Source of the DNA: Kiloniella sp. EL199
GTDB lineage: Bacteria; Pseudomonadota; Alphaproteobacteria; Kiloniellales; Kiloniellaceae
Assembly (NCBI RefSeq): GCF_900313065.1
Contig: NZ_OMPU01000014.1
Coordinates: 124,001-188,000 of the forward strand
Length of the DNA: 64,000 nt
Reading direction: 5' to 3'
Shown here: one piece after another, positions 33,276-35,941 of the stretch
Position numbering within the stretch: position 1 is the stretch's first letter
How the letters are laid out: each line of letters starts with the position of its first letter
Made by a program: the position numbers and the translations under genes
The notes under the pieces: model-generated
The model's input: the letters and a program-made list of their open reading frames with translations, nothing else
The model's database searches: none
What the model was told of the DNA's origin: nothing

Positions 33276-34613
33276 TTATTGCAATAGCGGAGACCAAGCC
33301 GGATCAACTCCATCAAGAGGCGTAACAACCTCTCTTTCGTTATATCCTGACAGATCAACCGTATAAACTTTGCTTTTCACTTTTCCCCGGCTATCAGATT
33401 TGCCCTGTTTAAAATAAGACAGAACCCGACCATTCGGAGACCAGGTAGGCCCTTCAACATGGTATCCCTCTGCCAACATACGCTCGCCTGATCCATCGGG
33501 CTTCATAACCCCGATATAGAACTTTCTACCGGAAAGACGTGTAAAGGCAATCAAATCACCACGCGGAGACCAGACAGGTGTCGCGTAACGCCCTTTGTTA
33601 AAAGAGATTCTCTTAACATTACCACCGTTAATATCCATCACATAGAGCTGCTGGCTACCACCGCGGTCAGAGTTGAATACAACCTTAGATCCATCAGGTG
33701 AATAGGACGGCGATGTGTCAATAGCTGGATGATTTGTCAGGCGAGAAAACTTTCTGGTCCGCAGATCCATTGTATAGATTTCGGTGTTCCCACGGTCAGC
33801 CAAGCTCATCACCACAGAATTTCCATCTGGAGAGAATCGTGGCGCAAAGCTCATTCCCTTGAAGTTACCAAGAGTTTCTTCACGGCCTGATGGAATATCT
33901 AGTAACTTCACTTTCGGGACATTGCCCTCAAATGACAAATATGTGACTTCTTGTGAAGTTGGCGAGAAACGAGGTGTAAAAACATCCCAGCGACCATTTG
34001 TGAGGAATTTATGATTGAATCCATCTTGATCCATAATCGCCAAACGACGTTGACGTCGATTTTGAGGTCCGGTTTCAGATACGTAAACAATACGGGTATC
34101 AAAGTACCCTTTCTCGCCAGTTAACTCCGTATATATATAATCAGAAATCTGATGAGACATTCTACGCCAAGCAGTTTTAGGAGCCGTTAATTTTCGCCCC
34201 TCAAGCATTACTTCGCCATAAACATCAAAAAGCCTGAATTCAACTTGAAGACGGCCATCTCCCAACAAAGCAGCTTTACCAGAAACAAGAGCCTGTGCAT
34301 TAATTAAACGCCAGTCACCAAACCGAACACCAGTTGAAAGAGATCTAACGTCTTGAATAAATGCTTTATTATCAATAGGCTTAAACAGCCCTGTTCGTTC
34401 AAGGTTACCGGAAATCACCTCAGAAATATCACGCCCAATCAATTGTTCTTCAGGCTGACCACCATTAAAATCTGCTATAGCGATAGGTAAAGGCTCGACA
34501 AAACCTTCCGTTATGCTCACATTGATTTCAGCCTGAACAGGAAAACTACCAACCGCAATTCCCAACACACCAACCACAGCAATCAGCAAACCGCGCGTTG
34601 CTTTTATTAACAT
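33276..34613 (-). CDS. tolB: Tol-Pal system protein TolB
   Basis: 445 aa from the ATG at 34613, which is preceded by GGGAGAAG; an ATG 21 bp upstream overlaps the stop of the tolA remnant. Signal peptide with VQA-E cleavage near 29. N-terminal domain (about 30-160), then a six-bladed beta-propeller with repeats such as [25 protein letters not shown] and SPRGDLIAF. Periplasmic; contacts Pal, TolA and the Lpp layer. Follows tolA in the operon after a 344-bp gap that contains a decayed tolA copy. Confidence 0.96.
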
Positions 34614-34630
34614 CACTATTCTTCTCCCGT

Positions 34631-34880
34631 TCATTGTCCGACCATTTTTGACGGATCAAATCGAATATTAATCACTTTCCAATCATCATAAAGATCGACT
34701 GGTAATCTGTAAGCTTCACATTCCGCGAGCGCTTGACTGAGTTCGCTAGATACAGAATTAAGACATCATCATGATCAACAACGACAATCTATTCAACACG
34801 ATCATCCCCAAGCAACTTCATAGTAAACTTAACAAGAGTATCTAACTAAGAATTGGGGCCAAATTTTGTTTCAACCGTTT
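34631..34880 (-). pseudogene. Decayed second copy of the TolA C-terminal domain
   Basis: The 344-bp gap between tolA and tolB translates on the minus strand into a TolA-like domain broken by at least one in-frame stop and one frameshift. The last part, ending [14 protein letters not shown] then SKMVGQ-stop at 34631, parallels the intact TolA ending [14 protein letters not shown] then AEMFGQ-stop. Upstream, in another frame, LVKFTMKLLGDDRVE-stop-IVVVD aligns with [20 protein letters not shown] of TolA. The C-x-x-Y-x-L-P block is also shared (CEAYRLP and CSPYKELP). No start codon, signal or repeat region remains. The left boundary is certain; the right one is approximate. Confidence 0.75.
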
Positions 34881-34978
34881 CGATAAGCACAATCGGCTAT
34901 GCGACTGCTATAAATTACGAACAAAAACAAAGCCCCCCCTTAAACCACAGGAAAAGGCATTTAAGTCAAATCTTAAAA

Positions 34979-35941
34979 TCATTGCCCGAACATTTCAGCA
35001 GGATTAAAGGTCAAATTAACTGTCTGCCAGTCAGCATAAACATTCTTATACTGGATCGGAAGTTCTTTATATGGGGAACATTTAAGAATTGCCGCCCTAG
35101 CCTTGACCGCTGCTGCAGTATAATAAGCATCTTTATTAAAACGCCCACTTGGATCCACAATTTGGACATTCGCGACACTTCCATCTTGGCGCATATTTAC
35201 TGAAACCTCGATAACCATTTCATCAGCCTGTAAAGCACCAGCATCAACGGACCAACAGCGCTTCATGTACTGCACGAACAATCTTTGGATGCTGTTAATC
35301 TGTGCAGCAGAAGCCCGTTGACGTGTCGGTGTTGTTGGTGCCTTACCTTTGGTTGTCGTTTTCTTTGGCGCTGATTTCAACTTGTCGACATTTTTCAAGA
35401 TAGACGCAAGCGCATCAACCTTTGGCTCGTCCTCTTTCTTCACAACTTCCGGTTTGGGCTCAGGACGCTTAGGTGGTTTTGGTCGCGCTTTAGGTTTTGG
35501 TGGTAAAGCCTTTTTCGCCTCTTCAGGTTCTGGCTCAATATTTTCAATGATTTCTGGCTCAGGTGCTTCAACCTTCAACGGTTCCGGTTCGGGAGCAGGC
35601 TCCGGCTCTGGAATTGGCTCCGGCTGTGGTTCAGGCTCAGGAATTGGTTCTGGTTCTGGTTCTGGCTCAGGTTCCGGCTGTGGTTCAGGCTCAGGAGTTG
35701 GTTCTGGTTGAGGTTCTGGCTCCGGCTTGGGTTCCGGCTCTGGAAGCTCTTCCGGCTCGGGTTCAGAAACATCCTGTTCTGGTGCCGGTGGTTTTTCCAA
35801 ATCAAGCTCTGCAAGTACAACAAACTCGACAGGTACAACCTGCTCAGCAAGAAAAGGCTTGTTAAAGCGTGGTAATCCAAAAATTACAAACGCCAACAAC
35901 GCCATGTGCATTAATAAAGAAACAGCAATGCCTGTACGCAT
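34979..35941 (-). CDS. tolA: Tol-Pal protein TolA with a Pro/Glu repeat domain
   Basis: 320 aa. N-terminal membrane anchor (about 5-22), a long periplasmic spacer of Pro-Glu and Pro-Lys repeats (about 55-185) in place of the Ala/Lys-rich helix of E. coli TolA, then a TolA/TonB C-terminal domain (about 215-320). It spans the periplasm and transmits TolQR energy to TolB/Pal. The spacer is probably a stiff polyproline rod. Start at 35941; it follows tolR by 11 bp. A degenerate copy of its C-terminal domain lies immediately downstream. Confidence 0.92.
35585..35765 (-). repeat. Low-complexity (Pro-Glu)n coding repeat in tolA
   Basis: Hexamer-like repeats of the GGCTCN/GGTTCN kind on the plus strand encode alternating Pro and Glu with a few Gln and Ile. 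The spacing is irregular and in frame; it is a protein repeat, not a CRISPR or VNTR with spacers. Confidence 0.85.

Follow-up and report, generated by a model that had tools for sequence, protein, structure and literature searches.

To our knowledge, domain III of TolA (TolAIII), freed from the rest of the protein, is known only from the laboratory, as a construct by which the outer membrane of Escherichia coli is loosened. Fusions of a signal sequence to TolAIII have served to render E. coli leaky (plasmid pTA3Y; Wan and Baneyx, cited in PMC6195910), while the tol-pal operon has accessory genes of a different kind, CpoB/YbgF and YbgC (PMC7391070). A natural stand-alone TolAIII or TolA paralogue between tolA and tolB was not found described in the literature searched, mostly without subscription journals. 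Here we consider the tolQ–tolR–tolA–tolB region of Kiloniella sp. EL199 (genome G000), which lies on the minus strand, as do all features given below for it, of a 64,000-nucleotide (nt) stretch of DNA, hereafter the window. From its sequence, the gap between tolA and tolB appears to be the wreck of a small gene for an exported single-domain TolAIII; as a pseudogene it is unremarkable, yet it points to a recurrent Tol–Pal accessory gene. We call this gene the solo, meaning a separate gene of 126–131 amino acids (aa) between tolA and tolB that has a signal-peptide-like start followed by TolAIII.

Compared with TolAIII of E. coli and Pseudomonas aeruginosa (PDB 1lr0, 6s3w, 3qdr, 2x9a), the solos are alike in fold and operon, and those of Kiloniella keep the cysteine pair and the W, F-x-P and M landmarks. 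They differ from full TolA in being a separate gene downstream of tolA, which has what looks like its own signal peptide or lipobox and lacks the N-terminal transmembrane helix and the periplasm-spanning linker. The pTA3Y fusions are of like design, being exported without the motor part, but they are artificial and overexpressed, whereas the solos are chromosomal, lie within the operon, have diverged from TolAIII and are under selection. CpoB/YbgF, YbgC and the solo are all accessory genes of the tol-pal operon; only the solo sits between tolA and tolB and derives from TolA itself.

The solo pseudogene occupies window positions 34631–34982, its start codon overlapping the tolA stop, and consists of a signal-peptide remnant, a frameshifted domain and a final stretch of about 41 codons that is readable in one frame. 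Translation of the 344-nt gap in three frames gives a TolAIII-like C-terminus running to a stop in one frame and more remnants in another. A profile (A1) was built from the intact solos of three sister genomes and searched against 61 genomes; in the window it matches the best-preserved remnant at 34634–34765 (profile positions 83–126, E=2.6e-16) and, in the other frame, an N-terminal remnant at 34768–34953 (positions 11–76, E=2.1e-7), which is interrupted by three TAG and one TAA. Scoring of all six frames of the gap, with stops written as X, gave the two remnants 62.3 and 33.7 bits against the relatives' intact copies, compared with a top score of 6.1 bits among 500 dinucleotide shuffles of the gap. 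Relative to the intact solo of G006, the window copy has lost sequence at four places (1, 12, 15 and 1 nt), and the frame that begins at the start overlapping the tolA stop contains 10 stops. A sequence-only reading had proposed a decayed second TolAIII in this gap, arisen by duplication and dead in the window, and this much is borne out.

The gene can be seen whole in relatives, an intact second copy being what that reading had proposed to look for there. Among nine Kiloniella genomes, the solo is intact in three (G004, G006, G008), broken in three (the window genome, G003, G007) and absent from three (G001, G002, G005; the G005 assembly is 77% complete, but its tolA–tolB junction was read). 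The intact copies start at the tolA stop or 12 nt past it and end at tolB, such that the start and stop codons of tolA, solo and tolB overlap or nearly so. They are found with the window TolA as query at E 3e-14 to 2e-12, as is the broken copy of G003 at 3e-11; solo profiles match both TolA and PDB TolAIII, and in the fold test the solos came out as TolAIII. Curated models fall short of them: a Pfam scan of 13 solos gave none over the cut-off, the nearest being TonB_2 with 21.6 of 22 bits (G225), and an NCBIfam scan of the three Kiloniella solos gave none over the tolA/tonB cut-offs. All calls of signal peptides and lipoboxes were made by eye, examples being AVA-EP in G004 and G006, LLAGC in G111, LAGC in G356, LMLGC in G289 and LAAC in L037. 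The mature part of the Kiloniella solos has a ratio of nonsynonymous to synonymous substitution rates (dN/dS) of 0.23–0.33, and the solos evolve under purifying selection. That the G008 solo and the other Kiloniella solos share one origin is weakly supported (50/50 in one tree, 69 in another). An origin of the solo signal peptide from the tolB 5' end, through tandem duplication across the tolA/tolB junction, was considered and is not supported: the G008 alignment was suggestive against shuffles, largely through the shared flank, and without that flank just one of 42 comparisons had a score unreached by 300 shuffles. Another secreted TolAIII-like open reading frame (ORF) lies elsewhere in the genome of G002 (L039:2771-3163).

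The sequence-only reading went further and took the remnant for the tail of the original tolA, with one copy taking over as the other died. For the last codons this is physically plausible, as the former tolA–tolB junction may be the source of the remnant's 3' end; the copy as a whole, by contrast, is a separate gene in relatives, complete in G004, G006 and G008 with its own start and signal-peptide-like N-terminus. Its dN/dS indicates that it was under selection, and it does not resemble the dead end of a tolA. Where relatives lack the insert (G005, G001, G002), tolA stops right at tolB. The suggested tie to the Pro-Glu spacer form also fails, because the spacer is Pro-rich in G001 and G002 too, which carry no second copy. 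As had been pointed out, the stop of the remnant overlaps an ATG in frame with tolB, which is the start usually drawn. This upstream ATG is absent in G001, G002 and G007, and the tolB start is more likely a GTG 18 nt downstream, behind GGGAG (window 34614–34634), judging from a codon that is GTG in eight of the nine Kiloniella genomes and TTG in G008.

Beyond Kiloniella, surveys covered 289 genomes of the class Alphaproteobacteria, with a follow-up of 16 multi-match genomes besides G000 and G004, a sample of 385 class genomes, and two families with nine genomes each. An intact tandem solo was present in at least six of the 385 (G004, G111, G192, G225, G289, G355), so that the tolA–solo–tolB arrangement is rare in the class. 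In genus g97 (family f89) it is found in five of seven genomes, with a plain signal peptide in G225, G355 and G358 and a lipobox in G111 and G356; dN/dS is 0.14–0.29 in nine of ten pairs, the tenth being saturated. In genus g166 (family f42) two of three genomes carry it, one copy in G289 and two in a row in G192, and the third (G347) gave one match only in the family search. The second ORF of G192 (L046:1705-2139) is very divergent, TolAIII-like and lipobox-bearing, and still lies upstream of tolB.

In a domain tree that also included G019 (family f2), G022 (f5) and G024 (f7), the solos lie on long branches beside the TolA copies and group with the TolAIII of their own lineage. Support by the SH-like approximate likelihood ratio test and ultrafast bootstrap (SH-aLRT/UFBoot) is 98.7/99 for Kiloniella, 97.3/99 for f42, 74.6/89 for f89 and 82.4/85 for f2. 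The solo thus probably arose at least four times independently, the origins in f89 and f2 being less firmly supported. Stand-alone TolAIII copies also occur away from tolA, in G019, G026, G002, G068 and G266; those of G019 and G026, two genomes of one genus, bear a lipobox (L037:2489-2932 and L038:4336-4779) and adjoin a gene which, to our eye, resembles that of phosphoglycerate kinase. Two further arrangements were noted: one uninterrupted frame at the beginning of a contig of G026 that encodes two TolAIII-like domains (L040:25-636), and two long TolA-like ORFs in tandem in G213 (L048), with near-identical domain III and, in the second, a signal-peptide-like region in place of the transmembrane start.

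In the window, the genes on either side of the remnant are themselves unusual. The tolA gene (34979–35941) encodes 320 aa with an N-terminal hydrophobic helix, a Pro-Glu linker and domain III; its product matches NCBIfam tolA_full at E=6.4e-11 with 42.1 bits, below the cut-off of 59.45, and is also below the curated cut-offs of Pfam TonB_C/TonB_2 and NCBIfam tolA/tonB. Against G003, G004, G006 and G007, residues 1–210 are 92–93% identical, whereas domain III (residues 211–320; 34982–35311) is only 65–68% identical. The tolB gene (33276–34634; 452 aa, numbered from the upstream ATG), identified by TolB_N and PD40 matches and by PDB TolB chains, behaves likewise: residues 119–176 of its N-terminal domain (34107–34280) are 55% identical to the same four genomes, compared with 93–94% for residues 36–116 and 177–350. 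At the DNA level, in 150-nt bins (two of them over TolAIII, and the G003 row lacking the first five), the two deepest identity dips in 7.5 kb of the operon are TolAIII (63–71%) and the TolB segment (65–70%). Synonymous difference is 0.77–0.88 in both segments and 0.22–0.73 in the others, which suggests import of diverged DNA and not just local adaptation, and both segments have probably diverged through exchange. One continuous recombination tract from tolA to tolB is not favoured, since the remnant and the start of tolB, which lie between the dips, are closer to the sister species. The domain appears to have been exchanged recently between the species of G006 and G007 as well, with a synonymous difference there of 0.08, against 0.36–0.61 in other segments (TolB signal peptide 0.17). 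Taken with the window divergence, this near-identity suggests that TolAIII moves as a module. In L003 and L004, which come from two species, the domain III DNA is 96–100% identical, stretch by stretch, while much of the operon differs by about 10–15%, consistent with recent exchange.

How the solo might work is suggested by what is known of TolAIII. This domain is the part of TolA that binds TolB, and it is also exploited by phage g3p and by colicins (PMC7391070, PMC7066135, PMC4339652). The E. coli TolB variants V101P and VVV99-101AAA lost TolAIII binding, the latter being also partly unfolded (PMC4339652); their sites align to window TolB at about 116–118, at the edge of the diverged segment, while D120, also cited for E. 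coli TolB, aligns to about 137, inside it. An exported TolAIII fusion aided release of a periplasmic protein from E. coli, although cells without it leaked too at high induction, cytoplasmic GroEL was found outside, and the authors term TolAIII a pore (PMC6195910). The binding, the TolB mutants and the leaky fusion together favour a competitor or modulator at TolB. An intact solo would reach the periplasm by export or be held by a lipid anchor, would lack the stalk driven by TolQR, and would bind TolB, or TolB–Pal, via its TolAIII fold; it could then compete with TolA or buffer its pull on TolB, and so adjust how Pal is released and how stable the outer membrane is. Both TolAIII and a portion of TolB would have diverged in the window lineage, probably through exchange, leaving the old solo mismatched and free to decay. 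We favour this account, of an exported competitor that decayed once the TolA–TolB pair had changed, only tentatively. The wider statement, that alphaproteobacterial Tol–Pal repeatedly spins off its force-transducing tip domain to serve, free or on a lipid anchor, as a third partner in the TolA–TolB slot, that TolAIII makes up an exchangeable specificity pair with part of the N-terminal domain of TolB, and that a switch of the pair kills the free partner, is doubtful.

The link between switch and loss comes from G005, which has no solo and shares with the window a 3-residue insertion in TolAIII (of KELPI type) and several TolB residues; the two group together in TolAIII (bootstrap about 80), and in the TolB segment they are 64% identical, a closer match than between the window and the other four genomes. 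Several observations weigh against our reading. The link is based on these two genomes, which are mutually only 64% identical in TolAIII as in the TolB segment, and in TolAIII this is no closer than either is to other genomes. The solo has decayed too in G003 and G007, which keep the common-type TolAIII and TolB, and is missing from G001 and G002, whose TolB segment is near the common type (78–81%), so its absence does not need a switch. In the two g97 genomes that lack a solo, TolB 119–176 is not specially changed (84–88%, against 79–81% in the rest), and the TolB link is thus not replicated there. In Kiloniella the last 20 residues, which in TolA contain the TolB-binding end, are conserved between solo and TolA at 13–14 of 20 positions, against 31–33% elsewhere, and such preferential conservation was found only in Kiloniella, not in f89 or f42. 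Finally, the part of TolB best known for binding TolA is the N-terminal strand (PMC7066135), which the diverged segment does not include.

The null explanation is that TolAIII is repeatedly duplicated in a recombination-prone operon, each copy being under weak selection for a while and then lost, with no dedicated function. That three of the six Kiloniella copies are broken, that intact tandem solos are so rare in the class, and that the solo dN/dS exceeds that of the TolA and TolB segments (0–0.13 where computable, TolB signal peptide aside) would all suit short-lived duplicates; dN/dS well under 1 in two lineages, retention in most g97 genomes and the apparent signal peptides or lipoboxes of every lineage would not, and we consider the explanation unlikely. 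The main functional rival is a decoy, in which the exported TolAIII soaks up the minor coat proteins of filamentous phages, or bacteriocin domains, for which TolAIII serves as periplasmic receptor, an old decoy being lost once a change of TolAIII type had left it mismatched. Phage g3p and colicins A and N do bind TolAIII (PMC7391070, PMC4339652), exchange of the domain between G006 and G007 is as expected of a receptor under pressure, and the shared insertion and grouping of G000 and G005, one with a dead solo and one with none, fit this too. A decoy should nevertheless track the TolAIII that it imitates, yet in ten pairs, with the last 20 residues set aside, solo and TolAIII of the same genome are just 26–52% identical, and PADLOC gave no match for the five solos submitted; this role strikes us as rather improbable. 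The dead tail of the original tolA is contradicted by the independent gene with its own apparent export signal in G004, G006 and G008 and by the long branches of the solos beside the TolA copies, and, although the last codons and the tolB junction resemble the tolA 3' end, we give it very little credence.

Natural, selected and operon-encoded solos with several origins would imply that, in some bacteria, a detached copy of the TolA tip serves to regulate or protect the contact between TolA and TolB. The solos offer test material for how TolA recognises TolB, the window showing a matched change in both partners, and if TolAIII and part of TolB are truly an exchangeable pair, the window would record a natural re-wiring of the TolA–TolB contact.
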